From Planctomycetes bacterium MalM25 (lineage in GTDB: Bacteria > Planctomycetota > Planctomycetia > Pirellulales > Lacipirellulaceae), in contig CP036424.1 in assembly GCA_007745835.1 (NCBI GenBank), positions 2,131,001 through 2,195,000 of the forward strand: 64,000 nucleotides of DNA, read 5' to 3'. Each line of letters begins with the position of its first letter. Positions within the stretch are counted from its first letter, which is position 1. Under the pieces are notes generated by a model, which worked only from the letters and a program-made list of their open reading frames with translations, was not told the origin of the DNA and searched no databases. Below are positions 28,455 through 54,756 of this stretch, in pieces. The translations under genes and the position numbers were made by a program.

Positions 28455-28468
28455 TCCGGCGTCGCGAC

Positions 28469-31282: not shown

Positions 31283-31288
31283 ACCGCG

Positions 31289-33898: not shown

Positions 33899-35842
33899 AT
33901 GGTTCGCGTGGGACGATACGCCGAGCGTCAACGTGTTGCCTGCGGCGCACCGTGGTTGCTTTGTCTGCTTGCGATTGGCTGGCTCGGTTCGCTTGGAGAT
34001 ACGACCGTGCTCGCCGAGCACGGTTCCGAGGTCCGTGTCGATCTGGACCACTGGCTCGTGCGGGGCGAGAGCCGAGAGCTAGATCGGCAGAAGTACTTCA
34101 ATGTGCACGGCAACCCGCGCGAGCTCAACGAGGAAGAGCTGCGGCTTGTGGTCGATGAGTTGGGAGCGAGCTTCGGACGCGGCTTAGGGCGACTGTCGTC
34201 CGTGCTCGCCAAGGCGGGGGAGGACCCCCAGCGGCCTGGGCACGCCAACCTGAGGAGGCTCTCTAAGACCCCCGTCGCCCGGGCTAAGTCGTCGGCTCCC
34301 GGCGAACTCGTTGAGTCGGCGCACCCGTTCTCCTACTTCGAACCGAAGGAAGGAGAGGCCGCGGGTGAGCGGTTTGTTCCCGCCGGCCCCGAGGAGGCGG
34401 CCGAGGCGGTGGTGGCTTACCTCAAGAGTCACCCCAATCCCCCCCGTTACTTCGAGGTGGCCAACGAACTGAATGTCCACGTCGGTCACTATCGAACCGA
34501 TTGGGACGAGGCCTGTCGGCTGCACACGGAGATCGCGAGAGCGGTTCACGATGAGCGTCTGAGCGTCATGGTAGGGGGGCCGACGGCCGCGTACCCGGCT
34601 TTTGAGCTGAAGGACTTCACGCTATGGAACAAGCACATGGGGCCCTTCATTCGCAGGGCTGGCCGCGACCTCGATTTCTTGTCGGTGCATCTCTACACCA
34701 CGCATTGGGACGATAAGGTCAACTATCGCTACGGCGCAAACACGGACGCGATTCTCGACCTGATGGCCAATGAATCGTATCTGCATACTGGGTCGGTGAA
34801 GCCCTTGGTCATCTCCGAGTGCGGCCGCGGATTCCGTAAGGGTGAGGCGATCCACGACGAGTACTCGCCACGGCGGGATTGGATGGTGATCAGCGGCGCG
34901 AATCACGCGATGTTCGGCCTTTACCGACGCGACCATGAGCTGCTGAAGGCGCTCCCCTTCATCGTTCTCAAGGCGAGCTGGTACCGCAGTGAGTATCCGT
35001 ACCCTTGGGTTTTGTTTCATCGCCACGGCGAGCATTGGGAAACGACCCATTTGGCTAAGTGGTACCGCTTCTGGCGCAACGCCGAGGGGAGACACCTTCC
35101 GGTTACGACCGAGGACCCTCAGCTGCAGACCATGGCGTTCTCCGCCGACGAGGAGGTTCAGGTCTACATCGATAATCTCAGCCAATCAGACCGTAGCTTC
35201 ACCCTGCCGATCGATCTGGCAAAGGTCGAGTCGATCATGCTCCGGAGACTCTATTTTGATGACTCCGAACCCTCGATCGAGGAGGAGGCTGTGGACGCCG
35301 CTTCGGCGATCCGAGTCACCATGCACCCCGAGGAGGCGGTGTTGGTCCGTCTCCGCATGAAAGGCCCGCTGGAGCCCAGCCGCGAACTTGTCGAAAGCAC
35401 CTGCTACGGCGATCAGACGCTTGTTCCCCTTGGGGACGGCGGGGCGTCGGTGGTGATACGGATGGACGAAGGCTCTGACCCGGTCGACGCGGCGTGCCTG
35501 CGGGTCGGTGTGAGCCGACCTCGCGGCCTATCGCAGGAGCCCCGGGTCCGCTTCAATGGCACGCTGCTGAGTGGTTCACCCAAGCGGCGGGGAGAGGGAG
35601 AGACGCTGCTACCCGATCGCTTCGGCGTGCTTGAGTATCGGGTGCCCGCCGGCTTGGTGAAGGGGGATAACCGTGTCTCGGTCGAGTACTCCGAGCCGGG
35701 CGGACGATTGGCCACGGCCGCTTTGAATGTGCGGCGTGAGCAAGAGGCCGCCGAAGCTACGCACGAGAGGCTGTTGGGGAGATCGAGCAACCCGCGAGCG
35801 GGTTGGTTAGCTACGCGTACTGTGAGGCAGCAAGATGAGTGA
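33899..35842 (+). CDS. GH86-like galactanase (agarase/porphyranase type)
   Basis: The product is 647 residues. After a signal sequence (LLCLLAIGWLGS) the catalytic region begins near residue 62 with QKYFNVHGN and DELGASFGRGLG, as in GH86 beta-agarases and porphyranases. The clan GH-A residues are visible: acid/base glutamate in EVANELNVH (about 190) and nucleophile glutamate in VISECGRG (about 307). A beta-rich C-terminal part from about 400 onward is accessory. Its last codons overlap the ECF sigma start by 8 bases, and GH16, GH29 and sulfatase genes follow. Family assignment is by remembered motifs; another clan GH-A family is possible. Confidence 0.6.
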   Translation: MVRVGRYAERQRVACGAPWLLCLLAIGWLGSLGDTTVLAEHGSEVRVDLDHWLVRGESRELDRQKYFNVHGNPRELNEEELRLVVDELGASFGRGLGRLSSVLAKAGEDPQRPGHANLRRLSKTPVARAKSSAPGELVESAHPFSYFEPKEGEAAGERFVPAGPEEAAEAVVAYLKSHPNPPRYFEVANELNVHVGHYRTDWDEACRLHTEIARAVHDERLSVMVGGPTAAYPAFELKDFTLWNKHMGPFIRRAGRDLDFLSVHLYTTHWDDKVNYRYGANTDAILDLMANESYLHTGSVKPLVISECGRGFRKGEAIHDEYSPRRDWMVISGANHAMFGLYRRDHELLKALPFIVLKASWYRSEYPYPWVLFHRHGEHWETTHLAKWYRFWRNAEGRHLPVTTEDPQLQTMAFSADEEVQVYIDNLSQSDRSFTLPIDLAKVESIMLRRLYFDDSEPSIEEEAVDAASAIRVTMHPEEAVLVRLRMKGPLEPSRELVESTCYGDQTLVPLGDGGASVVIRMDEGSDPVDAACLRVGVSRPRGLSQEPRVRFNGTLLSGSPKRRGEGETLLPDRFGVLEYRVPAGLVKGDNRVSVEYSEPGGRLATAALNVRREQEAAEATHERLLGRSSNPRAGWLATRTVRQQDE

Positions 35843-36371
35843 AGAGACCCAGGTGAGCCCGCACGAGCAGTTTGTCGCGCTGTTTGTACGTCACGAATCG
35901 GCCATACATTCGTTCGTGCTCACGCTCGTCCCCTCGATGACCGACGCCGACGAGGTGCTGCAAGAGGCCAGCATGACGATGTGGCGTCGGTTCGATCAGT
36001 ACCAGCCCGGGACCAGCTTCCGGAACTGGGCTTTCCAGGTCGCCAAGTACACCGCCTTCAATTTTGTCCGCAAGCAATCGCGAGACCGCCATCGATTCAG
36101 CGAGAAGGTCATGACGCTGCTCGCTGAGCAGGCGGAGCGAGAGCAAGAAGACCGCGAGTCCCGCCGGCAGATCCTAGAACACTGCATCGCCAAGCTCCAG
36201 GAAACTGAGCAAAGCGTGCTGGCGGGCGTATACCGCGAAGGTGAAACCATCAAGAGCTACGCGGAGGGGCAAGGACGCTCCGCGAACGCGATCGGCAAGC
36301 AGCTGGCGCGCATCCGAAAATCCCTGTTGGTCTGTGTCCGTCAGACCTTGCGAGTAGAGGCCACGACATGA
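35835..36371 (+). CDS. ECF sigma factor (planctomycete/verrucomicrobium type)
   Basis: The product is 178 residues. Region 2 spans about 15-80 (DADEVLQEASMTMWRRFDQY; SFRNWAFQVAKYTAFNFVR) and region 4 about 110-165, with a helix-turn-helix in ETIKSYAEGQGRSANAIGKQ. There is no C-terminal extension. It starts inside the end of the GH86-like gene and its stop overlaps the FecR-LamG start (ATGA), so the sigma factor, its probable regulator and the hydrolases are made from one message. It probably activates this or related polysaccharide loci. Confidence 0.85.
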   Translation: MSEETQVSPHEQFVALFVRHESAIHSFVLTLVPSMTDADEVLQEASMTMWRRFDQYQPGTSFRNWAFQVAKYTAFNFVRKQSRDRHRFSEKVMTLLAEQAEREQEDRESRRQILEHCIAKLQETEQSVLAGVYREGETIKSYAEGQGRSANAIGKQLARIRKSLLVCVRQTLRVEATT

Positions 36372-38065
36372 GCACTCGAGACGAGAGCACCGAGCTCATC
36401 GCCCTGATCGAAACGGTCCTCAACGGTTCGGCCTCGTTGACCGAGGTCCGGCGGCTCGATGAGCTGTTGGAGGAGAGCGCTGCGGCGCGATCCACTTACC
36501 TCGATTACGTGGATCTGCACGCCGGTTTACGACGCCGCTACAGCCACCCTGCCGAAGAGCCCTCGCAGGGCCGGCAAGAAACCTCCTCGGCGAATCGGCT
36601 GGACGCGGCACAGGGAGTCGCTCCGCCCCGCGGGGGTAAGCCGTCTGGGGCGTGGCGTATGCTCGGACTGATGGCCCTAGCGGCCTGCGTACCGCTGGCG
36701 GTTGCCCAGTTCATCCGCCCTGGCAACGACTCGCAGAAGGCAGAGGGGCTAGCCGAAGTGACCATCTCGCCCGACCAGAAGGCGAGCTTGGCCGGCGTGG
36801 CTGTCCTGTCGCGCGCGGTCGATGTCGAGTGGTCGGAGGGCGAGCTCTCGCACGCTGAGGGGGTCGCCGTGCCCGCCTCGAAGATCGCCTTCGACTCGGG
36901 CGTGATGCAGTTGGAGTTCTACAGCGGCGCGGTCGCCGTGATCGAAGGGCCCGCCGAGATCGACGTCATCGATGCGATGTCGGCGCGCCTGCACTCGGGG
37001 AAACTCAGGGCGCGTGTCCCGCCGCAAGCACGCGGATTCACGGTTCATACATCCGACGGGGAAGTGGTCGATCTCGGCACCGAGTTCGCTATCGATTTGG
37101 GAGCCGATCGCGAGTGGGGTGAACTGCATGTGATCGACGGCGAGGTCCGTTTCGACCCGGTGCAAGAGACCGGGCACGCATCGCGTCAGGTGTTTGGTGG
37201 CGAGGCGATGCGCCTCGGTTCCGATCCGCACGGTGAGCATGGCGTCGAGCTCACGACCGATCGCTTCATCGGCACCGCCGAGATCGAGAAGATATCACGC
37301 CAACGCAAGACGAAGCGTCACCGCCGCTGGCGGCAGTGGCGCTCGGAGTTCCTTGCCGACCCCGACTTGGTCGCTTGGTACGGCTACAGCCCTGAGCCGG
37401 AGTGGTCACGAACGCTCCGCAACTACGCACCGCAGGGGTCCGATGATTCGCACGGCGTGTTGGTCGGTTGCCAATGGGGGCCGGGGCGCTGGCCCAATCA
37501 ACGCGCCCTCCGCTTCCGCAACGCGAGTCACCGTGTCTCGGTGAACCTGCCCGGACAGCACGAGTCGATCACGCTCGCCACCTGGGCGTACCTCGACAAG
37601 CTGCACCCGACGAATCAAGTCGCCCTGATGCACGCCGACACGCTCCAGCCGCGGTTGATCCACTGGACGCTCGACCGGGTGCCTTCGGGCGCGCTGCTGC
37701 ACTTCTCGGAAAGCTCGACTCCCCAGAGGGGTGAGGTTCGTCGTCTTCACTACAGCTCGAAGCGAGGCGCCATTCAGAACGAAGACGCAGGCAGTTGGCT
37801 GCACTTCGCCCTGGTCTACGACGCCGACCTAAAACGCGTCACGCACTACTGCAATGGCGAGGTCGTCGGGTGGGCCCCCATCATCGAGGTGCGACCGATC
37901 GAGATCGGCGTCGCGGACATCGGCAACTGGCCGTACAAGTACTGGGCCAAAGGGACCGAGTTCGAGACCCGTAACCTGATGGGGCGGATCGACGAATTCG
38001 TTGTGGTTGGCCGTGCCATGTCGGGCAGTGAACTCGCCGAGATGTACAAGGTGGGCAAGCCATGA
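36368..38065 (+). CDS. FecR-type regulator with C-terminal LamG domain
   Basis: The product is 565 residues. The cytoplasmic N-terminus (1-95) resembles planctomycete anti-sigma segments (ESTELIALIETVLNG; LDELLEESAAARSTYLDYVD). One membrane helix lies at about 97-116. A FecR domain at about 135-290 shows LEFYSGAVAVIEGPAEI and VHTSDGEVVDLGTEFAI. A LamG jelly-roll at about 385-560 ends LMGRIDEFVVVGRAMSGSEL. LamG domains often bind carbohydrate, so the exported part could sense galactan directly and control the sigma factor encoded just upstream. It overlaps both neighbours by ATGA. Confidence 0.8.
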   Translation: MSTRDESTELIALIETVLNGSASLTEVRRLDELLEESAAARSTYLDYVDLHAGLRRRYSHPAEEPSQGRQETSSANRLDAAQGVAPPRGGKPSGAWRMLGLMALAACVPLAVAQFIRPGNDSQKAEGLAEVTISPDQKASLAGVAVLSRAVDVEWSEGELSHAEGVAVPASKIAFDSGVMQLEFYSGAVAVIEGPAEIDVIDAMSARLHSGKLRARVPPQARGFTVHTSDGEVVDLGTEFAIDLGADREWGELHVIDGEVRFDPVQETGHASRQVFGGEAMRLGSDPHGEHGVELTTDRFIGTAEIEKISRQRKTKRHRRWRQWRSEFLADPDLVAWYGYSPEPEWSRTLRNYAPQGSDDSHGVLVGCQWGPGRWPNQRALRFRNASHRVSVNLPGQHESITLATWAYLDKLHPTNQVALMHADTLQPRLIHWTLDRVPSGALLHFSESSTPQRGEVRRLHYSSKRGAIQNEDAGSWLHFALVYDADLKRVTHYCNGEVVGWAPIIEVRPIEIGVADIGNWPYKYWAKGTEFETRNLMGRIDEFVVVGRAMSGSELAEMYKVGKP

Positions 38066-38964
38066 ATCGTCGTCGATTGTACGCCTCGGCCTCGCTGATC
38101 GGTGTGCTCTTCTCGACCACCCTCGCTGTCGCCGTAGATGTTCGTCCCGGGGGGGTCGGCGATGGGACGCTAGCCGAGTGGAACCACACGGGCGAGTTGG
38201 GTCCACTGCCGACTCGCGTAACCGACAACGCCCCCCTGTCAGACCAGCCGAATTCGGCTGGCTGGCTCCTCGACGCCTCGCAGACGGACGAGTTCAACGG
38301 CGACGCGCTGGACCTCCAGCGATGGTCCCCCGTCCACCGGACATGGAAGGGGCGCCAGCCCGCGCGTTTCGTCCCCGAGAACGTGGAGGTGGCCGACGGG
38401 AAGCTGCGACTCTGGATGCGTAAGAACGGCCCCCCGATTGAGCAGGCGAGCAGCGGCTACCACACCTACACCTCCGCGGCCGTGCAGGCGCAACAGAAGA
38501 CACGCTACGGCTACTACGAGGTCCGCGCGAAGCCGATGAACTCCGCCGGCTCGAGTTCCTTCTGGTTCGCCGCTCACGGCGGCGGCTGGCGGACCGAGAT
38601 CGACGTCTTCGAGCTAGGGGGGCGGGCCGAGGGGTACGAGAACCGCTACAACATGAACCTCCACGTGTTCTACCGCCCCGGTTCTCGGAAGCACGAAAAC
38701 TGGGGCGGAAAGTGGCAATCGCCGACGCCGCTGGCGGACGACTTCCACGTCTACGGGCTCGAATGGACGCCCGAGCGGATCACGTATTACTTCGACGGGG
38801 TCCCGATCCGCTGGGCAGAAAATGCCTATTGGCGACAATCCCTCTTCCTTATCTTTGATTCGGAGACGATGATCGACTGGCTCGGCAAGCCACGCGACGC
38901 CGATTTGCCGAGCGTTTTCGAGATCGACTACGTCCGTGTGTGGCGAGACCCCAAGCTCCCTTGA
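38062..38964 (+). CDS. GH16 agarase/porphyranase-like enzyme
   Basis: The product is 300 residues with an N-terminal signal (LIGVLFSTTLAVAV). The GH16 jelly-roll begins near DEFNGDALDLQRW (about 76), with the catalytic block EIDVFE at about 179-184 preceded by SSSFWF. It ends FEIDYVRVWRDP. The loops around YHTYTSAAVQAQQKTRYGYYEVRAKPM and NMNLHVFYRPG resemble galactan-active GH16 enzymes (agarase, porphyranase, carrageenase) rather than laminarinases. The start overlaps the LamG gene stop (ATGA). It is likely to cut internal beta linkages of the same polymer as the GH86-like enzyme. Confidence 0.75.
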   Translation: MNRRRLYASASLIGVLFSTTLAVAVDVRPGGVGDGTLAEWNHTGELGPLPTRVTDNAPLSDQPNSAGWLLDASQTDEFNGDALDLQRWSPVHRTWKGRQPARFVPENVEVADGKLRLWMRKNGPPIEQASSGYHTYTSAAVQAQQKTRYGYYEVRAKPMNSAGSSSFWFAAHGGGWRTEIDVFELGGRAEGYENRYNMNLHVFYRPGSRKHENWGGKWQSPTPLADDFHVYGLEWTPERITYYFDGVPIRWAENAYWRQSLFLIFDSETMIDWLGKPRDADLPSVFEIDYVRVWRDPKLP

Positions 38965-39044
38965 GCCCCACACCCTTATCTAACTCTCGCAATGGCCAGG
39001 CCTGACAGGTCGGCGTGCGAACCGGATCCACGAGAAGACGCACC

Positions 39045-40568
39045 ATGAGAAAGTTATCGCACGCCTTCATGGCGTTGCTCGCGGCTGCCTGCTGCACAGT
39101 TGTATCTGCCAAGGAGCCGCTCACCACTGCGGGCCCCTACGCCGCGACGGGTGAGTCGCTCCAGCAGTGGGAGACCCCCGCCTGGTTCCGCGACGCCAAG
39201 TTCGGCATCTTCATCCACTGGGGCCCGTACGCCGTCCCCGCGTACGGCAGTGAGTGGTACCCTCGGCGGATGTACCAGGAGCACCGCACCACACCCAAGG
39301 GCGTGGTGAGCAAGAAGCCCGACCCGCTGTTCAAGCACCACCGTGAGGCCTGGGGCGATCAAGGCGAGTTCGGCTACAAGGACTTCGTCCCCAATTTCCA
39401 CGCCGAGAACTGGAAGCCCGAAGAGTGGATTGATCTCTTCAAGCGTTCGGGCGCCAAATACGTGGTGCCGGTCGCCGAGCACCACGACGGCTTCGCGATG
39501 TACGGTTCGTCGCACACGCCCTGGAACTCGGTCGAGAAAGGCCCCAAGCGTGACATCATCGGCGACCTGGGCGAGGCGTGCCGTGCCGGTGGGCTGCGGT
39601 TTGGCGTCTCTTCGCACTACGCGTGGAACTGGCGTTACTACACGTACCGGGATGACTTCGACACGTCGGACCCCGCTAACGCGGCCCTGTACGGACGCGC
39701 CCACGACCCGGACGCCCCCGCCGACGCCGAGTTCCTCGCGCACTGGCTCGCGCGCACCGCGGAGATCATCGATAAGTATCAGCCTGAGGTCTTGTGGTTC
39801 GACTTTGGCCTGAACTACCCCGAGTTCACCGACGTCCGCACCCAGCTCGCCGCGTACTACTACAACCGCGGCCTGCAGAACGACCAAGAAGTGGTGCTGC
39901 AGTACAAGAACATGAACTGGAACCCGTTCCCCGAGGGCTCGGGTCTGCTCGACATCGAGCGGGGCAAGTTCGACAAGATCAACGGCTTGCCGTGGCAGAC
40001 CGACACCTCGGTGAGCAGCCGCTCGTGGGGGTACATCGAGGACGACGCATTCAAGTCGAGCGCCGACCTGGTGGACAACCTGATCGACATCGTCAGCAAG
40101 AACGGCTGCATGCTGCTGAACGTCGGCCCCCGACCCGATGGAACGATCCCGCAGGCGGCGCAGGACGTGCTGCTCGAGATGGGCGCCTGGCTCGACGTGT
40201 ACGGCGAGGCGATCTACGGCACGCGGCCTTGGAAAGAGTTCGGCGAGGGGCCCACTTCCAACGCCTCGGGCCATCACAGCGAAAAGAACTACAAGGACCT
40301 GACCCCCGAGGACTTCCGCTTCACCCAGAAGGACGGCGTGGTCTACGCCATCGGCATGGCGTGGCCCGATTCGGGCGAGGCGAGCGTCCGCTCGCTCGGC
40401 GCCGGGGCGGGGCTCCTCGACGGCGCCATCGCTTCAGTCGAACTCGTCGGCAGCGATGCCCCGCTCGAATGGGATCAGGGCAACGACGCCCTCACCGTGA
40501 AGCTCCCCGCCGGACACCAAGACGAACCCGCCTACGCCCTGCGTATCAAGACGAAGGAATCGCCATGA
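39045..40568 (+). CDS. GH29 alpha-L-fucosidase/alpha-L-galactosidase
   Basis: The product is 507 residues from the ATG at 39045 with signal peptide (MALLAAACCTVVSA). GH29 features are strong: PAWFRDAKFGIFIHWGPY at the domain start, KYVVPVAEHHDGFAMY, and nucleophile aspartate in EVLWFDFGLNY. It ends in a small beta domain. GH29 enzymes remove terminal alpha-L-fucose, and some in porphyran loci remove alpha-L-galactose. Downstream genes favour L-galactose here. The sulfatase start overlaps its stop (ATGA), suggesting sulfate and sugar removal are coupled. Confidence 0.85.
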   Translation: MRKLSHAFMALLAAACCTVVSAKEPLTTAGPYAATGESLQQWETPAWFRDAKFGIFIHWGPYAVPAYGSEWYPRRMYQEHRTTPKGVVSKKPDPLFKHHREAWGDQGEFGYKDFVPNFHAENWKPEEWIDLFKRSGAKYVVPVAEHHDGFAMYGSSHTPWNSVEKGPKRDIIGDLGEACRAGGLRFGVSSHYAWNWRYYTYRDDFDTSDPANAALYGRAHDPDAPADAEFLAHWLARTAEIIDKYQPEVLWFDFGLNYPEFTDVRTQLAAYYYNRGLQNDQEVVLQYKNMNWNPFPEGSGLLDIERGKFDKINGLPWQTDTSVSSRSWGYIEDDAFKSSADLVDNLIDIVSKNGCMLLNVGPRPDGTIPQAAQDVLLEMGAWLDVYGEAIYGTRPWKEFGEGPTSNASGHHSEKNYKDLTPEDFRFTQKDGVVYAIGMAWPDSGEASVRSLGAGAGLLDGAIASVELVGSDAPLEWDQGNDALTVKLPAGHQDEPAYALRIKTKESP

Positions 40569-42109
40569 AGTCCCCAACGATCCTCGTGCTGGCGGCTTGC
40601 TGTCTTATCTCGGCCCAAGCCGAGGTGGCCCAAGCGGACACGGCGCCGCGGCGGAACATCCTGTGGATAATGTCCGACGACCACGCGACCAACGGTGTTG
40701 GCGCCTACGGCGGCCGGTTCGCTTCGCTCGACCCGACGCCGACACTCGACCGCCTCGCGGCGGGCGGGACGCGTTTCGCGAACTGCTTCTGTAGCAACTC
40801 GATCTGCACTCCCAGCCGCGCGACGCTGATGACCGGGCAGTATTCGCACCACAACGGCGTGCGGACGCTCAACGGCTCGCTGCCGGCCGACCGCCAAACC
40901 CTGGCGCTGCGGATGAAGGACGCCGGGTACCAGACAGCGATGATTGGTAAGTGGCACCTCAAGAAGGAGCCTGGCGCTTTCGACTACTACTGCGTGCTCG
41001 GTGGTCAGGGGAAGTACTTCAACCCGACTTTCCGCATCCGCGGCCCGAAGCCGTGGCCGCATAACACGTTCCGGCCTTCGGACCGGAGCTACGACTCGAT
41101 CCACTCGTCCGACGCGATCACGAACGCCTCGATCGCCTGGCTCAAGAAGCGAGACAAGCAACGCCCCTTCTTCTTGATGCACCACTTCAAGGCTCCGCAC
41201 GACAACTTCGAGAACGCTGAGCGGTACGACTGGCTCTACAAGGACGAAACCCTCCCCGAGCCGACGAACCTGGCCGAGCGCGGCGAGCACGGCCCGATCG
41301 ACACGCCCCGCTACGGCACCAGCATCTCGAAGCGGAACACCCGCCGCAACATGGGCGACCATATGGCGACCCCCAAGTCGCTCTCTGATGCGGAGTACAC
41401 CGCGGAGACCTACCAGCGTTATCTGAAGAAGTACCTCCGCTGCGTGCGCGGTGTGGACGATAACATCGCCCGATTGCTCGCTCTCTTGGAGGAGCAGGGC
41501 GAGCTCGACAACACGATCGTTATGTACACATCCGACCAGGGGTTCATGCTCGGCGAACACGACTACATCGACAAACGCTGGATGTACGAGGAGTCGATGC
41601 GGATGCCGTTCATCGTTCACGGTCCCGGCGTCGCGGCGGGTGCGGTGCGGGACGAGCTGATCACGAACGTCGACTTCCTGCCCACGATCCTCGACTTCGC
41701 TGGCGCTTCCGCCAAGGGTGAGCAGCTCGATGGTGAGAGCCTCGCTCCGCTGGCACGCGGCGAGCAACCCGAGTCCTGGCGAGACGACCTCTATTACCGT
41801 TACTGGATGCACCAGGCGCACCACGACGTGCCGGCTCACTACGGCGTCCGCACGAAGGACTTCAAGCTGGTCTTTTTCTACGGCCTGCCGCTCGACGCCG
41901 AGGGCGCCCGCGACACGCCGACGCCGGCGCACTGGGAACTCTACGATTTGGTCAACGACCCGAGTGAAGACCAGAACGTGATCGACGACCCACAGTACGC
42001 CGAAGTGGTCTACGGCCTGAAGAAGCGGCTGCTGGAGCTCAAGGAAGAGGTTGGCGACACGGATGAGTCGTACGACGAGCTGATGGAAGTCCGTGAGGGG
42101 GCGTGGTGA
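40565..42109 (+). CDS. Formylglycine-dependent sulfatase (S1), first copy
   Basis: The product is 514 residues with a signal peptide (LVLAACCLISAQA). The formylglycine motif CTPSR has its cysteine at residue 81, in NSICTPSRATLMTGQY. Metal ligands are in NILWIMSDDH, and later family motifs are GKWHL and YTSDQGFMLGEH. It has the length and order of S1 sulfatases that desulfate algal oligosaccharides. It overlaps the GH29 gene by ATGA and is followed at once by a second, only moderately similar sulfatase. The exact sulfate position cannot be read from sequence. Confidence 0.88.
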   Translation: MKSPTILVLAACCLISAQAEVAQADTAPRRNILWIMSDDHATNGVGAYGGRFASLDPTPTLDRLAAGGTRFANCFCSNSICTPSRATLMTGQYSHHNGVRTLNGSLPADRQTLALRMKDAGYQTAMIGKWHLKKEPGAFDYYCVLGGQGKYFNPTFRIRGPKPWPHNTFRPSDRSYDSIHSSDAITNASIAWLKKRDKQRPFFLMHHFKAPHDNFENAERYDWLYKDETLPEPTNLAERGEHGPIDTPRYGTSISKRNTRRNMGDHMATPKSLSDAEYTAETYQRYLKKYLRCVRGVDDNIARLLALLEEQGELDNTIVMYTSDQGFMLGEHDYIDKRWMYEESMRMPFIVHGPGVAAGAVRDELITNVDFLPTILDFAGASAKGEQLDGESLAPLARGEQPESWRDDLYYRYWMHQAHHDVPAHYGVRTKDFKLVFFYGLPLDAEGARDTPTPAHWELYDLVNDPSEDQNVIDDPQYAEVVYGLKKRLLELKEEVGDTDESYDELMEVREGAW

Positions 42110-42111
42110 GC

Positions 42112-43743
42112 ATGATTCATTCTCTCAGCAGTGTGCTTCTCCTGGTGTGCGCGGCGACCTGCGTCGCTCCGGCCGAGGCCAGGCGACCGAACATCGTCTT
42201 CCTGCTGACCGACGATCACCGACGCAGCGACCTCGGTTGCTACGGCAACGAGGTGATCCGCACTCCGGAGATCGACCGTCTGGCGGCCGAGGGGGTGCTG
42301 TTCGAGAACGCCTCGGTGACGAGCGCCATCTGCACGCCGAGCCGCGCGAGTTACTTCCTCGGGCAGTACGAACGCCGGCACGGGGTGAACTTCAACTCGG
42401 GCACCGCCATGGCTGCGGAGGCCTGGGCGGATGGCTTTCCGGTGCGTCTGCGTGAAGCGGGCTACCACACCGGGTACGTCGGTAAGAACCACGTGCCGAT
42501 CGGTGACCGAGGCTACAACACGGGGCTCATCGAGAAGAGCTTCGACTACTGGTACGCCGGGCATGGGCACCTGAGTTTCTACCCGAAGCGTCGCCACAAT
42601 ATCTTTAAGGCGGCGAAGAGCGACACGCAGATCGAGATCCTCACCGAGGGCGCGGACGCCTTCCTTGATACCGAGGCCGATTACCTCGAGGGGACCACCT
42701 CGTTCGTCGATTCGCGTCCCGAAGACCAGCCTTTCTTTCTGATGGTCGCGTTCAACTTGCCCCACGGTGCGGGGGCGAGCACGATGGAGATGCGACCCGA
42801 GGACGACGAACTCTACCGCACCGCCTACCGCGATCAGCCCGATCGTATCAAGCCGCCGGCGACCTACCTCTCCAAGGCGGAAATCGACGAGCCGAAGCTG
42901 CCTGCGGACGTGGCCCACGTCGAGTTCCGGCAGGGGAGCTACAGCTACGTCGACGACCCCGAGTCGCTCCGCGAGCGGATGATCCGCCAGCACCAGACGG
43001 TCTCGGGAATCGATCGATTCGTGGGGCGGCTGCGTGAGCGACTCGACTCGGCCGGCGTCGCGGATAATACGGTGATCCTCTTCGCCTCGGACCACGGCCT
43101 GCTGCTCGGCGAGCACGGTCTCGGCGGCAAGGCGCTGAACTACGAGCCTTGCCTCTCGATCCCGATGATCGCCTACGACCCGCGGGCCCCAGAGGGGCGA
43201 CGCGGCGTCCGCGAAGGCGCCCTCACGCAATCAATCGACTTGGCGCCAACGATCCTCGATCTCGGCGGCGCCGACATCCCCGACGCCGTGCAGGGGCGGA
43301 GTTTGGCCCCGCTCCTCCGCGGCGAGAAGAGCGATTGGCGCGAGTACGCCTACGCTGAGAACCTCTGGTCGACTTACTTCGGCAACCCGCGCTGCGAGAG
43401 TGTCCGCGGCGAGCGCTGGAAGTATATCCGTTACTTCGCCAACGATCGTAAGCTCTACGAATCGTTCGATCCGAAGGCGGTCTACAAGGTCAACTCGGTG
43501 TACACGGACAGCTACCGGCGTTGGTTGACCTCGTCGATCGAAGGCGAGCAGCCCGACTACGAAGAGCTGTTTGACTTAGTCAACGACCCAGAAGAGACGC
43601 GCAACCTCGCCGGAGAACCTGGTCAGTCTAGCCGGATGGCTGAGATGCGCGAGCGATGCCTTGCGATGGCGAAAGCCGCGAAGGGGCCGCTCAACAAGCC
43701 GCCGGCGACGGTCCCGTTGCCGATGGGCAAGAAGGGCAAGTGA
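42112..43743 (+). CDS. Formylglycine-dependent sulfatase (S1), second copy
   Basis: The product is 543 residues from the ATG at 42112, two bases after the first sulfatase ends. The signal peptide is SLSSVLLLVCAATCVAPAEA. The modified cysteine is at about residue 75 in AICTPSRASYFLGQY; metal site NIVFLLTDDH, then GYVGKNHVPIG and FASDHGLLLGEHGLGGK follow. It diverges from its neighbour in the substrate-facing loops, so it likely acts on a different sulfate or linkage. It ends 8 bases from the convergent AraC gene. Confidence 0.88.
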   Translation: MIHSLSSVLLLVCAATCVAPAEARRPNIVFLLTDDHRRSDLGCYGNEVIRTPEIDRLAAEGVLFENASVTSAICTPSRASYFLGQYERRHGVNFNSGTAMAAEAWADGFPVRLREAGYHTGYVGKNHVPIGDRGYNTGLIEKSFDYWYAGHGHLSFYPKRRHNIFKAAKSDTQIEILTEGADAFLDTEADYLEGTTSFVDSRPEDQPFFLMVAFNLPHGAGASTMEMRPEDDELYRTAYRDQPDRIKPPATYLSKAEIDEPKLPADVAHVEFRQGSYSYVDDPESLRERMIRQHQTVSGIDRFVGRLRERLDSAGVADNTVILFASDHGLLLGEHGLGGKALNYEPCLSIPMIAYDPRAPEGRRGVREGALTQSIDLAPTILDLGGADIPDAVQGRSLAPLLRGEKSDWREYAYAENLWSTYFGNPRCESVRGERWKYIRYFANDRKLYESFDPKAVYKVNSVYTDSYRRWLTSSIEGEQPDYEELFDLVNDPEETRNLAGEPGQSSRMAEMRERCLAMAKAAKGPLNKPPATVPLPMGKKGK

Positions 43744-43751
43744 AGCGTTGC

Positions 43752-44618
43752 CTATCGCAGCTTGCGGAACTCGCTAGGCGAAACGCCGAACGTCGCCTTG
43801 AAGGTCCTCGAGAAGTGGAAGGGGTCCGTGTAGCTCAGGTCTTGAGCGACCTGCTTGATGGTGTCGTCGGAGTCGAGCAACCGCTCGGCGGCCAGGTTCA
43901 TCCTTAGCCGCAGCAACATCTGGTACGGGCTCTGACGGCCGTGCCGCTTGAAGAGCCGGCTGAGGTACTCCGGCGAGACCCCGCACTCGGCGGCCGCTTG
44001 CTGTTGGGAAGTGAGCCGTTGGGCGTTGGCCACCAGGTGGTTCACGCAGCGTTGATAGGTCTCGTAGGGCTCGGGCCCCGTGCCGTCGCCGGTGGATCGG
44101 TGCGCCGCTGCGCGCAAAGCCAGGCAGCGGAGCATCGCCGCGCAGATCGCCTGCGATGATTCATCGCCGCGGACGCCGTCGCGGATCAGCTCGTTGAAGA
44201 GGAGCTGCACTTCGGGCACCGAGGAGATTCGGAGGCAGGTCCCGGGCGGGGCGGCGATCTGGGTGAGCAGGGAGAGTGCCCCGGACCCAGCGAAGTTGAC
44301 GAAGTACTTACCCAGCCGAGTGTCCCGGTCCGTGCTGATGCGGTGGGGCACGCCGGCTCCGTAGGTGAACAGCGATCCGGGCCCCAGCTCGTGTTGCTCG
44401 GCGCCCAGGGTGACGAGCCCCTTCCCGCGGGTTACCAGCTCGATCGAGCAGTAAGGGAAGGAGACTCGCCGGATCGCGTAGTCGGCCTGGCAGTCTTCGT
44501 ACCCTCCGCACACGACGGCCAGATCGACGTCGGGCGAGGGGGCCAAGTCCAGGAAGAACCGCCGAGCCTCGCGGACCGATTGGGAAAAGAAGTCGGGTTG
44601 GGGGTTTTGCGGCTTCAT
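43752..44618 (-). CDS. AraC-family regulator of the sugar-uptake operon
   Basis: The product is 288 residues from the ATG at 44618 (a TTG at 44630 would add four residues). The N-terminal half is a cupin-like sensor (LVTLGAEQHELGPGSLFTYG; GVPHRIS). The C-terminal half has both AraC helix-turn-helix units: SQQQAAAECGVSPEYLSRLF and DDTIKQVAQDLSYTDPFHFS, ending FGVSPSEFRKLR. It is encoded opposite the FucP-like symporter, with about 170 bases between them. It probably senses the released L-sugar and activates the divergent operon. Confidence 0.85.
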   Translation of the reverse strand: MKPQNPQPDFFSQSVREARRFFLDLAPSPDVDLAVVCGGYEDCQADYAIRRVSFPYCSIELVTRGKGLVTLGAEQHELGPGSLFTYGAGVPHRISTDRDTRLGKYFVNFAGSGALSLLTQIAAPPGTCLRISSVPEVQLLFNELIRDGVRGDESSQAICAAMLRCLALRAAAHRSTGDGTGPEPYETYQRCVNHLVANAQRLTSQQQAAAECGVSPEYLSRLFKRHGRQSPYQMLLRLRMNLAAERLLDSDDTIKQVAQDLSYTDPFHFSRTFKATFGVSPSEFRKLR

Positions 44619-44634
44619 GGCGTATGTCAAGAAT

Positions 44635-44649: not shown

Positions 44650-44789
44650 TTCTATCCATGGACGCCCCGCTTTGGCGAATCCAGAATACGTAGCTCTCAC
44701 CATGGGCCCGAAAACCACCGGGCGGTGGGAACGCGGTGCGGCGGGGCCGCTTCGCTTCCTCATCCAAACTCTTCTGCCAGGCGATACTT

Positions 44790-46205
44790 GTGGAAAATCA
44801 GACTGAAACTCCCCAGGGCGAGTCGCCGACCGTCCCTCGCGAGTACCTGGCCGCCTTCGTTCTGGTGACGACACTGTTCGCCCTTTGGGGCTTCGCGAAC
44901 GACGTCACCAACCCGATGGTGAAGTCGTTCCAGCAGATCTTCCAGCTTAAAGCTTGGGAGGGGAACCTCGTGCAGCTCGCCTTCTACGGCGGCTATGGCA
45001 CGATGGCGATCCCCGCCGCGTTGTTCATCCGCAAGGCCTCGTTCAAGGCGGGCATCTTGCTCGGCTTGGCCTTGTATGCCCTCGGGGCGTTGTTATTCAT
45101 CCCGGCGAGCATCACGCAAGAGTACTGGCTCTTCCTCGGTTGTTTTTACATCATCACGTTCGGCTTGGCCTTCCTTGAGACCTCGGCAAACCCGTACATC
45201 CTGTCGATGGGTCCGCCCGAGACCGCGACTCGGCGATTGAACTTGGCTCAGGCGTTCAACCCGATGGGGTCGCTCTGCGGCATGTTTGTGGCGGCGGTCC
45301 TGGTGTTGCCGAACCTTGATGTCAACGCTTTCCGGCAAGAGCACATCGACGCGCACCCCGAGTACGTCAGCCAGGGGCTGACCCCGGGCGAGATCGAAGG
45401 CAAGGTCAACGAGGCGATGTCTGCTCTCCAGACCGAAGAGCCGGAACGCTACTCCGAGATTCGCACTCACGACCTGGGCATTATCCGGGTGCCCTATGTG
45501 ACCATTGCTTTGGTAGTGCTGGCCGTGTTGGCCGCCTTTGTCGTCTCGAAGATGCCCGAAGGGGGATCGGCCGATGAGCCGGTCCGGATCGGCGAGGTGA
45601 TTTCAAACCTCATGACCTTCCGTTACCTGGGCGGCGTGCTCGCGCAAGGCGTTTACGTTGGCGCCCAAATCATGTGCTGGACCAACATCATCGAATACGG
45701 CATGAGTTCGCTCGGCATGAGCGCCTCGGATGCCCAGATGCACAACATCGGCGCCATGTGCATGTTCCTTGCGAGTCGATTTGTCTGGACCGCCGCCCTG
45801 CGTGTGGTGCCGGCGGGCATCCTGCTCGGGTTGCTGGCGATTGGCGGTACGCTGGCCGTTCTGGGGGCTGTCTATTTGCCGGGGTACGCCGGCATCTACA
45901 GCCTCATGGCGACCTCGATCTTCCTCGCCGCGATGTTCCCGACGATCTACGGCATCGCGTTGGGTGGCCTGACGGTTGACGACGCCAAGCTCGGCTCCGC
46001 CGGACTAATCTTCGCGATCGTCGGCGGCGCCCTGATGCCTCCGTTGCAGGGATCGATCATCGACATGGGCGAGGTGAACGTGCTGGGCACGACCCTCCCC
46101 GCCGTCCGCGCCTCCTTCCTGCTGCCCGCCGCGTGCCTCGCCCTAGTGGCGATCTATGGCTTCCTCGTCGGACGGGCGGACGGAGGGACTACCAAAGAAT
46201 CATGA
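44790..46205 (+). CDS. FucP-like sugar:proton symporter (MFS)
   Basis: The product is 471 residues from a GTG start at 44790; no better start lies near the first helix. The MFS core has about twelve membrane segments. Strong FucP-like motifs are LFALWGFANDVTNPMVKSFQ, QLAFYGGYGTMAIPAALFIR and ETSANPYILSMGP. E. coli FucP carries L-fucose and also L-galactose, which suits the catabolic genes that follow. A large loop at about 185-230 is longer than in E. coli. Its stop overlaps the next start (ATGA). Confidence 0.85.
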   Translation: MENQTETPQGESPTVPREYLAAFVLVTTLFALWGFANDVTNPMVKSFQQIFQLKAWEGNLVQLAFYGGYGTMAIPAALFIRKASFKAGILLGLALYALGALLFIPASITQEYWLFLGCFYIITFGLAFLETSANPYILSMGPPETATRRLNLAQAFNPMGSLCGMFVAAVLVLPNLDVNAFRQEHIDAHPEYVSQGLTPGEIEGKVNEAMSALQTEEPERYSEIRTHDLGIIRVPYVTIALVVLAVLAAFVVSKMPEGGSADEPVRIGEVISNLMTFRYLGGVLAQGVYVGAQIMCWTNIIEYGMSSLGMSASDAQMHNIGAMCMFLASRFVWTAALRVVPAGILLGLLAIGGTLAVLGAVYLPGYAGIYSLMATSIFLAAMFPTIYGIALGGLTVDDAKLGSAGLIFAIVGGALMPPLQGSIIDMGEVNVLGTTLPAVRASFLLPAACLALVAIYGFLVGRADGGTTKES

Positions 46206-47482
46206 CCAACCAAGCAATGAGCACTCCCTATCCCAGCACGATCGGCATCGATGCCTCTTTCGGGTTCGGTGACCGGATCGGCCTCGCCACGCCGGGCCAT
46301 GTGGCGGCGATGCGTCAGGCGGGCGGCGGCATCACGCCGATCTACGCCCAGCAGTCGATCCGCGAGATGACCCGCACCGGCCGCACCGCGAGCGAGGTGA
46401 TGGGCGACGCCATGAGCGCGTTGCTCGGCTCCCAGTGGACGCAGCCTCACGGGGCCGACGCGGACCACCTGAAGACCGAGGCCGACATCGAGTCGACCGC
46501 CGAGGTCGGCTTCACCTTCTTCACGCTCGACCCGTCGGACCACGTCGACCAGAAGGCCGACGACTACGACCAGGCGACCGTCGCCGAGAAGTTCGAAGCC
46601 TTGGTGGATGGCAAGCCGCTGGCCGAGGTCTACACCGGTCGCAAGGTGACCCTCGCCAGGGGGACCGAGCTTGTCTTCGACGAACTCGCGGTCAAGCGGG
46701 CGGCCGTTAAGTACGGCGCCGCGATCGAGGCCGCCGTGCGTCTCGGCCTGCACGCCGCGAAATTCCAGGAGGCTGCCGAACGCCCGTATGAGATCGAGCT
46801 GAGCGTCGACGAGACCGACCAGCCGACCACGCTTGTCGAGCACTACATCATCGCCGAGCAATGCCTCTCGCGCGGCGTGAAGCTCGTGTCGCTGGCGCCG
46901 CGGTTCATCGGTGAGCTCGAGAAGGGGGTCGACTACATCGGCGATGTGGCAGCGCTCGAGGCCTCGCTGGCCGACCACGCCGCCATCGCGGAGAGCCTCG
47001 GCCCCTACAAGCTGAGCCTGCATTCGGGTTCCGATAAGATCTCGATGTACCCCGCGCTGGCCCGCGCCACGAAGGGCCGCTTCCACGTGAAGACCGCGGG
47101 CACGTCGTACCTCGAAGCGGTCCGCGTCGCGGCACTGGAAGAGCCCGATCTGTTCCGCGACGCCATCCGCTTCGCCCGCGAGCGTTACGACACCGACCGG
47201 GCGACCTACCACGTTCACGCGACGCTCGCCTCGGCGCCCGAGCCGGACGCCAGTGTCTCGGACGAGGAACTTCAGGACGCTTATCTCGAGCGTTGGGAGA
47301 CCGTCCCCGAGGGCCTCGGCTTCACGAAGGCGGGGCGACAGATCCTCCACTGCACTTTCGGTTCGTCGCTCACGGACCCGAAGCTCGGCGCTGCGTTGCG
47401 GGCCTGCTTGGAGAAGAACCTGGGCACCTACACGGCGGTCTTAGCGGAGCACTTCTCTCGTCACCTCAACGCGCTTCGCTGA
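46202..47482 (+). CDS. uxaE: UxaE-like tagaturonate 3-epimerase
   Basis: The product is 426 residues; a second ATG at 46217 is possible. It follows the Thermotoga UxaE pattern closely: DASFGFGDRIGLATPGHV, IYAQQSIREMTRTGRT, GADADHLKTEADIES, FFTLDPSDHV, SVDETDQPTTLVEH, RFIGELEKGVDYIGD and SLHSGSDKISMYPALARATK. UxaE converts D-tagaturonate to D-fructuronate at C3 with a divalent metal; histidines and acids in these blocks are likely ligands. Found between a FucP-like importer and sugar-acid dehydrogenases, it links L-galactonate oxidation to the fructuronate branch. A related keto-acid substrate cannot be excluded. Confidence 0.78.
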   Translation: MTNQAMSTPYPSTIGIDASFGFGDRIGLATPGHVAAMRQAGGGITPIYAQQSIREMTRTGRTASEVMGDAMSALLGSQWTQPHGADADHLKTEADIESTAEVGFTFFTLDPSDHVDQKADDYDQATVAEKFEALVDGKPLAEVYTGRKVTLARGTELVFDELAVKRAAVKYGAAIEAAVRLGLHAAKFQEAAERPYEIELSVDETDQPTTLVEHYIIAEQCLSRGVKLVSLAPRFIGELEKGVDYIGDVAALEASLADHAAIAESLGPYKLSLHSGSDKISMYPALARATKGRFHVKTAGTSYLEAVRVAALEEPDLFRDAIRFARERYDTDRATYHVHATLASAPEPDASVSDEELQDAYLERWETVPEGLGFTKAGRQILHCTFGSSLTDPKLGAALRACLEKNLGTYTAVLAEHFSRHLNALR

Positions 47483-47490
47483 ATCTGCTT

Positions 47491-48552
47491 ATGTCGTCAG
47501 CCAGTCCACTGCCGGGCGCCACGAATGACCCCGTCATGCCGCGCGTCAGCTTGCCGCGTGTCGTGTTCGGGTCGAGCGCCCTGGGCAACCTCTACCAGGC
47601 GTTGCCGTTCGAGCGCAAGATCGAGCTGGTGAGCGGCTGGTTCGAGCACGGTGAAGAGCCGGTCGTCATCGATACGGCAGGCAAGTACGGCGCCGGGTTG
47701 GCCTTGGAGTCGATCGGGGATTGCCTCCGTGAGCTGAAGATCGCTCCCGAGCAGGTCCGCGTCGGCAACAAGCTCGGCTGGTACCGCATCCCGATGGTGG
47801 GCGATGAGCCGAGCTTCGAGCCCGACGCTTGGATCGACTTGGAAAACGACGCGGAGCAACGACTCAACGCCGAGGGGATCGTCGAGTGTTGGGAGCAAGG
47901 CAACGAGCTGCTTGGTGAGCCATACCGCCCGAGCATGATCTCGGTCCACGACCCGGACGAGTACCTCGCCGCCGCCGCCGACGAGGCGGACCGCGAGCGG
48001 CGGGGCGCTGATCTGCTGGCGGCGTACGGCGAGCTGAGCAAGATTCGCGACTCGGAGCCGGGGGTGACGCTCGGCGTGGGGTCGAAGGACTGGCGGGTAG
48101 TCCGGGACTTGGCCGGGCGGGTCGACTTTGATTGGGTGATGCTCGCCAACTGCGTCACCGCCTACACGCACCCGGCCGAGTCGCTCGAATTCATCGATCG
48201 GCTGAGCAAGCGGGGCGTCGCGGTTGTGAACTCGGGTGTCTTCAACGCTGGGTTCTTGGTCGGGGGTGCCTACTTCGACTACCACCCCGTCGAGCGCGCG
48301 TCCGAGCCGGAGTTGTTCGACTGGCGCGACCGGTTCGATCAGCTCTGCGAAAAGCACGGCGTCAATAGGGCGCACGCTTGCATTCAGTTTGGGCTCTCGC
48401 CCCCCGGGGTTCAGTCGGTCGCGCTCAGCACGACCTCGCCCGGGCGGATCGCTCAGAACATCCGTTACGCCAACGAGGCCACGCCCGCGGCGTTCTGGGC
48501 CGAAGCCAAGCAGATCGGTTTGGTCGCCAAGGACTACCCGTACCTGGGCTAG
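47491..48552 (+). CDS. Aldo/keto reductase, probable L-galactose/L-fucose dehydrogenase
   Basis: The product is 353 residues from the ATG at 47491. The AKR tetrad is visible: Asp and Tyr in VIDTAGKYGAG, Lys in VRVGNKLGWY, His in SMISVHDPDEYL. The C-terminal nucleotide-binding part is SVALSTTSPGRIAQNI. Sequence style (PRVVFGSSALGNLY; GVQSVALS) is that of L-fucose and L-galactose 1-dehydrogenases, which oxidise the sugar to its lactone with NAD(P)+. It stands 8 bases after the epimerase gene and before mutarotase and lactonase genes, as expected. Confidence 0.8.
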   Translation: MSSASPLPGATNDPVMPRVSLPRVVFGSSALGNLYQALPFERKIELVSGWFEHGEEPVVIDTAGKYGAGLALESIGDCLRELKIAPEQVRVGNKLGWYRIPMVGDEPSFEPDAWIDLENDAEQRLNAEGIVECWEQGNELLGEPYRPSMISVHDPDEYLAAAADEADRERRGADLLAAYGELSKIRDSEPGVTLGVGSKDWRVVRDLAGRVDFDWVMLANCVTAYTHPAESLEFIDRLSKRGVAVVNSGVFNAGFLVGGAYFDYHPVERASEPELFDWRDRFDQLCEKHGVNRAHACIQFGLSPPGVQSVALSTTSPGRIAQNIRYANEATPAAFWAEAKQIGLVAKDYPYLG

Positions 48553-48581
48553 GACGCCGCCGTCAACAAGAAGCAACCGCG

Positions 48582-48971
48582 ATGATCAAGACAGGCCTTC
48601 TGAATCCGGCGATCGCCTCGCTGCTGCGCCGGACGCGGCACACGAACCGCTTGGTGATCGCCGACCGAGGGTTCCCGTACTGGCCCGAGCTGGAGACGAT
48701 CGACCTGAGCGTCGTCGACGACCTGCCCACGGTGCCCCAGCTGCTGCAAGCGATCCTGCCCAATTTCCAAGCGGGCCACGCCTGGATGGCGCAGGAGTTC
48801 CTCGATAACAACGACCAAGCGACCCAAGACGCCTTCACCGCGGCGTTCGACGGCCTGAGTGTCAGGCACGAGCCGCACGACGATTTCAAGAAGCTCGTGC
48901 CCGGTTCCATCGGCCTGATCCGCACCGGCGAGACGGTCCAGTACGCGAACGTGATCCTGGAGTCCGCATGA
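48582..48971 (+). CDS. RbsD/FucU-family sugar mutarotase
   Basis: The product is 129 residues, the usual length. RbsD features are GLLNPAIASLLRRTRHTN with the catalytic histidine, LVIADRGFPY with aspartate, a second histidine in EPHDDFKKL and the C-terminal YANVILESA. These enzymes interconvert sugar anomers, here supplying the anomer used by the neighbouring dehydrogenase. It is closer to RbsD than FucU in detail. The lactonase start overlaps its stop (ATGA). Confidence 0.83.
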   Translation: MIKTGLLNPAIASLLRRTRHTNRLVIADRGFPYWPELETIDLSVVDDLPTVPQLLQAILPNFQAGHAWMAQEFLDNNDQATQDAFTAAFDGLSVRHEPHDDFKKLVPGSIGLIRTGETVQYANVILESA

Positions 48972-49804
48972 TCCTCGACGCCCACCACCACCTCTGGCGG
49001 TACACGGAGGCCGACTACGGCTGGATCGACGACGGCATGCAAAGGATCGCCCGCGACTTCGAGGTCGCCGACCTCAGCCAGGCGGGCGCTGGGCGTGTGC
49101 AGGGATCGGTCGCCGTGCAGGCCCGTCAGACCGTCGAAGAGACCGAGTGGCTGCTCGGGACGGCGGAGCAGTCAGACTACATCCGCGCGGTCGTCGGCTG
49201 GGCGCCGTTGGCCGACGACACGCTGAGCCAGCACCTCGACGCCTGGGCCGAGCGTAAGCTGCTGAAAGGCCTCCGCCACGTGGTGCAGGACGAGCCGGAC
49301 GACGACTTCTTGGACCGCGAGCCCTTCAACCGGGGCGTCGCCGAGGCGTTGTCTCGCGGTTACCGCTACGACCTGCTGATCTTTGCCCGTCAGTTCCCGC
49401 AGACGATCCGTTTCGTCGATCGCCACCCGGGCGGGAGTTTTGTGCTGGATCATATCGGCAAGCCCGCCATCGCTGAGGGCGAGCACGATGTGTGGGCCTC
49501 GCACATCAAGCAACTGGCTGAGCGCGAGAACGTCGTCTGCAAGCTGTCGGGCATCGTGACCGAGGCGGAGTGGGACACTTGGACGCCCGAATCGATCAAA
49601 CCTTACCTCGACACGGCGCTCGAAGCGTTCGGGCCGAACCGTCTGATGTTCGGCACCGACTGGCCCGTCTGCCTGTTGGCCACCGAGTACCAGCGCTGGC
49701 TGGAGGTCATCACCGACTGGGCGGCGCCCCTCTCCGACAGCGAGCGAGACGCCCTGTTCTACCGCACCGCCGCTGAGTTTTACGGGATCACCATCGAAGC
49801 ATGA
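48968..49804 (+). CDS. Amidohydrolase-family sugar lactonase (L-fucono/L-galactonolactonase)
   Basis: The product is 278 residues of the amidohydrolase_2 class used as L-fuconolactonase and related lactonases. Metal-site motifs are [11 protein letters not shown] at the start, FVLDHIGKP in the middle and [12 protein letters not shown] near the end. It hydrolyses the lactone made by the aldo/keto reductase to the free aldonate, L-galactonate if the proposed pathway is right. It overlaps both neighbours by ATGA, so the mutarotase, lactonase and dehydrogenase are translationally coupled. Confidence 0.85.
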
Positions 49805-50832
49805 AAGCTTTTGAAATCACCGAGCCGGGCGCAGCACGCCTGGTGGATCGAGAAGACCCCAAGCCCGGTCCGGGGGAGGTGCTGCTGCGCGTCGACACGG
49901 TCGGCTTCTGCGGCACCGACCTGAGCACCTTCTTGGGACGCAACCCGCTCGTGAGCTACCCGCGCGTCCCCGGCCACGAGGTTGCCGCGACCGTCGCCGA
50001 ATTGGGCGAGGGCGTCTCGGGCTGGAACGTGGGCGAAACGGCTCTCGTCTTCCCGTACACCGAGTGCGGCGAGTGCTCGTCTTGCCTCGTCGGTCGGCTC
50101 AACTGCTGCAAGCAGAACCAGACGCTCGGCGTGCAACGGGACGGCGTGCTGTCCGAGTTCGCCGTGGTCCCCGCCGCGAAGCTGCTGCGTGCCGAGGGGC
50201 TCTCGTCTCGCGAGCTCGCCCTGGTCGAGCCGCTCACGGTCGGCGCCCACGCGGTGGCGCGTGGCGAGGTCGCCGAGGGTGAAGCGGTCGCCGTGTTCGG
50301 CTGCGGGGCGATCGGCCTCGGGGCCATCGCCGCCGCCGCGCACCGCGGCGGGCGGGTGATCGCGATCGACATCGACGACAAGAAGCTCCAACTCGCCAAG
50401 GATTGTGGCGCCGCGTTGACGATCAACTCGGGGTCCGAGGACCTGGCGACCCGTTTGACCGAAGAGACCGGCGGACACGGGCCGTCGGTCGTCATCGAGG
50501 CGGTCGGGCTGCCGCAGACCTTCCGGGCGGCGGTCGATCTGGTTTGCTTCGCGGGACGCGTCGTCTACATCGGCTACGCCAAGCAACCGGTCGAGTACGA
50601 GACCAAGTTCTTCGTCATGAAGGAGCTCGACATCCGTGGCTCGCGCAACGCCCTGATGCGTGATTTCGAGTGGGTGATCGGCATGCTCCGCGAAGGCGTC
50701 GTCCCGACCGACAAGATCGTCACCCACACGGCCCCCCTCTCGGCGGCGGTGGAAGCGCTCAGCCAATGGAGCGAGAATCCAGGTGACGTGACCAAGATCC
50801 ACGTGCAGCTGCACGAGGGTGGCGCTGCCTAG
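49801..50832 (+). CDS. Zinc MDR dehydrogenase, probable L-galactonate 5-dehydrogenase
   Basis: The product is 343 residues. Catalytic zinc ligands are in [10 protein letters not shown] and PGHEV. The structural zinc site is [15 protein letters not shown]. The cofactor Rossmann motif is [15 protein letters not shown], and DIDDKKL suggests NAD preference by its acidic end. E. coli LgoD (YjjN) is a protein of this superfamily that oxidises L-galactonate to D-tagaturonate. Placement directly after the lactonase and in an operon with a tagaturonate epimerase supports that reaction. By sequence alone threonine- or sorbitol-dehydrogenase-like activities are possible. Confidence 0.72.
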
Positions 50833-50898
50833 GTCGCCCGGCCGCGTCAATCGATGCCGGCACGTTTCACTGCCAATAGACTCGCCGAGGTTCGTCCG

Positions 50899-53883: not shown

Positions 53884-53904
53884 CCTCCCAACCGATACCA
53901 CGAC

Positions 53905-54714: not shown

Positions 54715-54756
54715 TAAACCAACAACTCACTCCAGCTTCAGCAGAACCATAGCCCG

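Follow-up and report, generated by a model that had tools for sequence, protein, structure and literature searches.

Introduction

Porphyran breakdown is best known from gut Bacteroides, which acquired it from marine bacteria. The porphyran enzyme activities of B. plebeius and B. uniformis have been described (PMC12316285), as has a route in Phocaeicola vulgatus and Luteolibacter sp. LG18 (lgu genes) that converts L-galactose via L-galactonate to D-tagaturonate by two dehydrogenases (PMC12632266). Planctomycetes are already on record as carrying glycoside hydrolase family 86 (GH86) and porphyranase genes (PMC4807772). Here we describe a locus within a 64,000-nucleotide (nt) window of Planctomycetes bacterium MalM25 (contig CP036424.1; coordinates are positions in this window unless given as genomic), in which a block of galactan hydrolases and sulfatases (33899-43743) is followed downstream by an operon predicted to catabolize L-galactose (44736-55842). 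We consider it, with a probability of roughly 0.8, to be a planctomycete utilization locus for porphyran, the L-galactose-6-sulfate-bearing agaran of nori-type red seaweeds, with a dedicated operon for catabolism of the rare sugar L-galactose attached. An earlier note on this DNA had proposed that the block depolymerizes a porphyran-like galactan and supplies the operon with L-galactose, an interpretation that sequence similarity, residue comparisons and co-occurrence support here.

Each type of enzyme was known before, and we found no description of an all-in-one arrangement outside Bacteroides, nor any report of this combination in planctomycetes. The locus may thus offer a second model of porphyran use: a compact planctomycete version predicted to lead from polymer to 2-keto-3-deoxygluconate (KDG), under its own sigma-factor control and with no SusC/SusD found in it.

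A seven-gene block with predicted galactan-active enzymes

The block comprises seven genes arranged head to tail on the + strand, encoding a GH86 enzyme, an extracytoplasmic function (ECF) sigma factor, a FecR/LamG protein, a GH16 enzyme, a GH29 enzyme and two sulfatases. Neighbouring genes overlap by 4-8 nt, with a gap of ~50-80 nt only ahead of the GH29 gene, and because of these overlaps the genes look like a single transcription unit, suggesting that they form one operon; a scan for promoters and terminators gave no signal exceeding that of shuffled sequences. Pfam scores for the GH86, GH16, GH29 and both sulfatase genes lie above the curated cut-offs, and these assignments are therefore not due to chance. 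All five share a strand and lie where the earlier note had placed them, or close by, and both sulfatases have the CTPSR motif; it had not mentioned the sigma factor or the FecR/LamG protein.

The first gene (33899..35842) encodes an endo-beta-galactanase of the porphyranase/agarase family GH86, with a signal peptide recognized by eye. It matches BPA_C (PF18040; 51.3 bits, cut-off 26.2) and Porphyrn_cat_1 (PF18206; 36.8 bits, cut-off 27), which cover the accessory beta-sandwich domains of the family, and aligns its catalytic Glu190 (NE motif) and Glu307 (ISE motif) with those of known members. The Pfam and PDB matches thus dispel the concern that this gene might fall outside GH86. Among solved structures, agarase 5ta1 (157 bits), porphyranase 4aw7 (154 bits) and agarase 8h97 (151 bits) score nearly equally, as would be expected if the target were mixed agar/porphyran, where GH86 would serve as a beta-agarase in regions rich in anhydrogalactose and the sulfatase and GH29 would clear sulfated units only. 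This possibility overlaps with a porphyran target, since agarobiose units are present in natural porphyran (PMC12316285), and it gains from a GH117-like domain in the downstream operon and from a Lacunisphaera genome that places an agarase-CBM protein beside the same sulfatase and GH29. Yet the Thr/Met pair of agarases is absent from the GH86 -2 subsite, which carries Leu/Val, and the sole adjoining sugar pathway is one for L-galactose rather than anhydrogalactose; we regard the mixed target as a second option, less likely than not. The -2 residue pairs were taken from PMC5849685, whose agarase M396 was read as M369, the sole aligning position; the Phe site was compared via BuGH86 only, and some Phycisphaera mikurensis GH86 rows were left out of the alignment.

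The MalM25 genome (4.7 Mb) carries six GH86 genes including that of the window, the others lying at genomic positions 1928012, 2621855, 4560073, 4682338 and 4689359. Two GH2 genes occur within 8 kb of the one at 1928012, making further agaran loci likely.

The GH16 galactan hydrolase (38062..38964; PF00722, 70.8 bits, cut-off 22) is closest to BpGH16C of subfamily GH16_14, a 6-O-methyl-porphyranase (8ep4; 165 bits, 40% identity), followed by further porphyranases at 80, 70 and 64 bits. The best laminarinase reaches 38.5 bits, placing the enzyme in the porphyranase/agarase clade, with its ExDxxE motif (E179-I-D181-x-x-E184), and answering the earlier concern that it might be of laminarinase type. 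Mapping of residues showed that the equivalents of W64, R67, W134, E145, D147, E150, F169 and E238, which include the catalytic and -1 subsite residues, are retained. At the site of BpGH16C Gly132 the enzyme has Ser166, as in PorA; Gly132 occurs in methyl-tolerant porphyranases whereas Ser or Thr is tied to ordinary ones (PMC12316285), and the GH16 is therefore predicted to be an ordinary porphyranase. Its top NCBIfam match, a kappa-carrageenase (82 bits), would instead point to a carrageenan cluster with GH16 as the kappa-carrageenase; this score is far under the model cut-off of 350, the best solved kappa-carrageenase scores 53 bits against 165 for porphyranase 8ep4, and carrageenans contain no L-galactose. 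We rejected this extremely improbable reading on the low kappa-carrageenase scores and the missing L-galactose. A second GH16 gene in the window (21745-23079) is nearer to SKN1/KRE6-type glucanases.

Enzymes predicted to release L-galactose

The GH29 gene (39015..40568, with the start probably at the ATG at 39045; PF01120, 347 bits) has as its nearest solved relative the exo-alpha-L-galactosidase of B. plebeius (7snk/7ljj, 409/405 bits), which by alignment also appears to be its closest characterized relative; the next match, a fucosidase, scores 259 bits. The nucleophile, Asp263 in a WFD motif, is aligned. Scanning the genomes for GH29 returned mostly genes without GH86 matches nearby.

The first sulfatase (40565..42109; sulfatase Pfam model, 196 bits) is an S1-type enzyme resembling exo-L-galactose-6-sulfatase (S1_11; 7lha, 524 bits), with N-acetylglucosamine (GlcNAc)-6-sulfatase at 335 bits. 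It keeps all eight of the BpS1_11 contacts (formylglycine site, H133, H214, D215, R271, D345, R347 and H428), as listed for L-galactose-6-sulfate in PMC12316285; D215 and H428 are lost in relatives with a GlcNAc-6-sulfatase-like motif. Its formylglycine site carries Cys (CTPSR) where BpS1_11 has Ser. Together with the GH29, it therefore fits the Bacteroides-type porphyran set that had been proposed, both being closest to the exo-enzymes of that system. The second S1 sulfatase (42103..43743; PF00884, 154 bits), also with CTPSR, has 6hr5 as its best PDB match (204 bits).

Porphyran clusters were expected around the sulfatases of class relatives (53-67% identity), and no GH29 or GH86 was found nearby, so that this sulfatase by itself does not mark such clusters. 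In loci L037-L049, mostly from class relatives, sulfatases 59-66% identical carry the full set of L-galactose-6-sulfate contacts, again with no GH29 or GH86 nearby.

An adjoining operon predicted to serve L-galactose

Downstream of the hydrolase block, the + strand operon at 44736-55842 begins with a FucP-type sugar:H+ symporter (44736..46205; TIGR00885, 459 bits, cut-off 280) and a tagaturonate/fructuronate epimerase, UxaE (46133..47482; PF16257, 400 bits; PDB 9lhu, 298 bits). These are followed by an aldo/keto reductase that is a candidate L-galactose dehydrogenase (47293..48552, true start probably near 47488; PF00248, 98.6 bits), an RbsD/FucU mutarotase (48378..48971, true start probably near 48582; PF05025, 90 bits), an amidohydrolase resembling L-fucono/L-galactono-lactonases (48968..49804; PF04909, 166 bits; NF052480, 285 bits, below the cut-off of 400) and a Zn-dependent dehydrogenase that is a candidate L-galactonate 5-dehydrogenase (49801..50832; PF00107/PF08240; PRK10083, 230 bits, below the cut-off of 376). 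The genes for an oxidative L-galactose pathway (dehydrogenase, lactonase and L-galactonate dehydrogenase) thus occur together, directed toward tagaturonate, with assignments at the family level only. Further downstream lie a short-chain dehydrogenase/reductase (SDR) matching D-mannonate oxidoreductase, that is, fructuronate reductase (53905..54714; NF006132, 334 bits, cut-off 281), and a PfkB kinase resembling KDG kinases (54757..55842; PF00294; NF041633/NF041332 below their cut-offs).

Oxidation of L-galactonate gives tagaturonate, L-fuconate cannot yield a hexuronate, and UxaE requires a hexulosonate. The presence of UxaE in the operon therefore argues for L-galactose rather than L-fucose, in line with the supply of L-galactose proposed earlier. 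This bears on whether the locus might serve fucoidan or another source of L-fucose, with GH29 as a fucosidase and FucP and the lactonase handling the sugar: the matching Pfam and NCBIfam models are named for fucosidase, FucP and fuconolactonase, which would suit it, and non-marine bacteria have GH29 relatives of similar identity. The substrates of GH86 and GH16 are, however, beta-galactans, the nearest solved GH29 is an L-galactosidase by 150 bits, L-fuconate is not matched by UxaE plus mannonate oxidoreductase, and the sulfatase has the L-galactose-6-sulfate contacts. Given the galactan-type enzymes, the GH29 match, UxaE and the sulfatase contacts, we rejected fucoidan or another L-fucose source as very unlikely.

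Regulators and predicted pathway

The ECF sigma factor within the hydrolase block (35835..36371) belongs to the Rhodopirellula/Verrucomicrobium subfamily (TIGR02989, 167 bits, cut-off 124.55, 2.9e-49). The FecR-like protein that follows (36368..38065) has a lectin-like LamG domain (PF13385, over its cut-off; PF04773 at 23.7 bits, just below the cut-off of 24) and is its probable sensor/anti-sigma partner. An AraC-family regulator (43752..44630, - strand; PF12833, PF02311) is divergent from the L-galactose operon.

From gene identities, order, key residues and co-occurrence we infer the following substrate, order of reactions and regulation. Outside the cytoplasm, GH86 and GH16 would cleave beta-1,4 bonds within the galactan chain; the S1_11-type sulfatase would strip the 6-sulfate off L-galactose at the non-reducing end, GH29 would next free the L-galactose, and the FucP-type symporter would take it up. 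The aldo/keto reductase, mutarotase, lactonase and Zn-dehydrogenase may then convert it to D-tagaturonate, which UxaE would epimerize to D-fructuronate and the SDR would reduce to D-mannonate. A dehydratase step would lead to KDG, to be phosphorylated by the PfkB kinase. The galactan or its sugars are probably sensed by the ECF sigma factor and FecR/LamG protein for the hydrolase operon, and by the AraC regulator ahead of the sugar operon.

Several observations weigh against a porphyran locus with a complete L-galactose pathway. The GH86 is only ~30% identical to characterized members, and the Leu/Val of its -2 subsite correspond neither to the agarase pair nor to the Phe/Ser of porphyranases (BpGH86A F77/S326); in the GH16, BpGH16C residues N61, S136 and N234 near the -2 sulfate are not conserved. 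The GH29 cluster that contains BpGH29 includes fucosidases too (PMC11189522), and the same sulfatase signature is found in planctomycetes with no GH29 or GH86 nearby. The cluster contains no beta-galactosidase, GH2 genes lying elsewhere in the genome. Finally, the genome has no UxuA (PF03786) or UxaA (PF04295), and PF00920 has one match per genome, probably IlvD. Two enolase-superfamily dehydratase-like genes, at genomic positions 1729499-1730850 and 2479042-2481765 and each beside a 2-keto-3-deoxy-6-phosphogluconate (KDPG) aldolase gene, could supply the dehydration step that is lacking or belong to the metabolism of anhydrogalactose. How mannonate is dehydrated when neither UxuA nor UxaA is encoded is a testable question.

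The operon also encodes a secreted protein of 1009 residues (50854..53883) that fuses an FAD-dependent oxidoreductase (PF12831, 226 bits) to a GH117/GH43-like propeller. The best solved matches of its C-terminal part are GH117 anhydro-alpha-L-galactosidases (5ta7, 2.1e-14), and the blade-1 Asp of GH117 seems, by eye, to be Gly. Its two parts occur as separate proteins in other planctomycetes, and no other protein spanning both was among the matches listed in 392 planctomycete genomes. It is conceivable, though very unlikely, that the fusion is a new enzyme type that both oxidizes the terminal unit of a galactan, be it anhydro-L-galactose or methylated galactose, and sets it free; if so, it would represent a planctomycete route for agaran ends distinct from both GH117 plus dehydrogenase and P450 demethylases.

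Comparison with known systems and across genomes

In PUL-PorB/PorA, the porphyran polysaccharide utilization locus (PUL) of Phocaeicola (Bacteroides) plebeius, the GH86, GH16, GH29 exo-alpha-L-galactosidase and S1_11 sulfatase each rank first or near the top among the solved relatives of the MalM25 enzymes. The MalM25 locus differs in carrying the ECF sigma/FecR-LamG cassette within the operon and an attached L-galactose pathway, in the Cys of its sulfatase, and in lacking a beta-galactosidase. It is also not a Bacteroides-type PUL, as neither SusC nor SusD occurs among the annotated genes of 33899-55842. The predicted route from L-galactose via L-galactonate to D-tagaturonate is common to MalM25, P. 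vulgatus and Luteolibacter sp. LG18; the latter proceeds via altronate, whereas UxaE and the mannonate oxidoreductase of MalM25 point to fructuronate and mannonate.

Searching the 392 planctomycete genomes one family at a time revealed sulfatases of this kind in 51, GH29 of this kind in 15 and GH86 in two. Sulfatase and GH29 occur together in 7/392 genomes, above expectation (P ~0.001, ignoring relatedness), and both GH86 genomes fall within these seven (P ~0.0003, again ignoring relatedness). As class relatives have the sulfatase without GH29, it is the combination of the two that tracks GH86. The two GH86 genomes are MalM25 and Phycisphaera mikurensis, the latter identified by 12 kb matching its plasmid at 100%; in both, GH86, GH29, sulfatase and L-galactonate genes lie close together, with GH29 and sulfatase accompanying GH86 within 8 and 17 kb.

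In P. mikurensis NBRC 102666 (~1.910-1.936 Mb), GH29 adjoins the sulfatase, surrounded by lactonase, Zn-dehydrogenase, aldo/keto reductase, a UxaE-like gene and GH35, with GH86 ~12 kb off. Unlike that of MalM25, this locus is not one operon (mixed strands and an intervening cysS) and includes GH35. Identity to MalM25 is 49% for GH29, 48% for the sulfatase and 31% for UxaE; the GH86 enzymes are 26% identical and not obvious orthologs. L-galactans also exist in ascidians, and a different sulfated L-galactan of this sort would suit the GH29, the two sulfatases and the L-galactose operon. Such polymers would make GH86 and a galactan-type GH16 unnecessary, and Porphyra was the isolation source of the species (PMC4042473) to which the only other sampled planctomycete with GH86 belongs; we consider such a polymer very unlikely as the target.

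Outside the planctomycetes, a Lacunisphaera genome (Verrucomicrobiota) carries together the sulfatase, GH29, an agarase protein with a carbohydrate-binding module and KDG kinase/aldolase genes. In three Acidobacteria/Terriglobia loci (L119, L132 and L156), GH29 adjoins or lies near a Zn-dehydrogenase that shares 54-55% identity with the candidate L-galactonate dehydrogenase of the window, a pairing that suggests use of L-galactose on land.

Flanking genes

Beside the L-galactose operon, on the - strand at 55839-60762, lie genes for a GH130 mannoside phosphorylase, a sodium:solute symporter and an exported protein that has no Pfam match but resembles GH5 by eye. Together they may form a cluster for mannan, which also occurs in Porphyra walls. 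The region just upstream of the hydrolase block (23243-33130) encodes a succession of several large proteins of FG-GAP/ASPIC-UnbV and TPR type.

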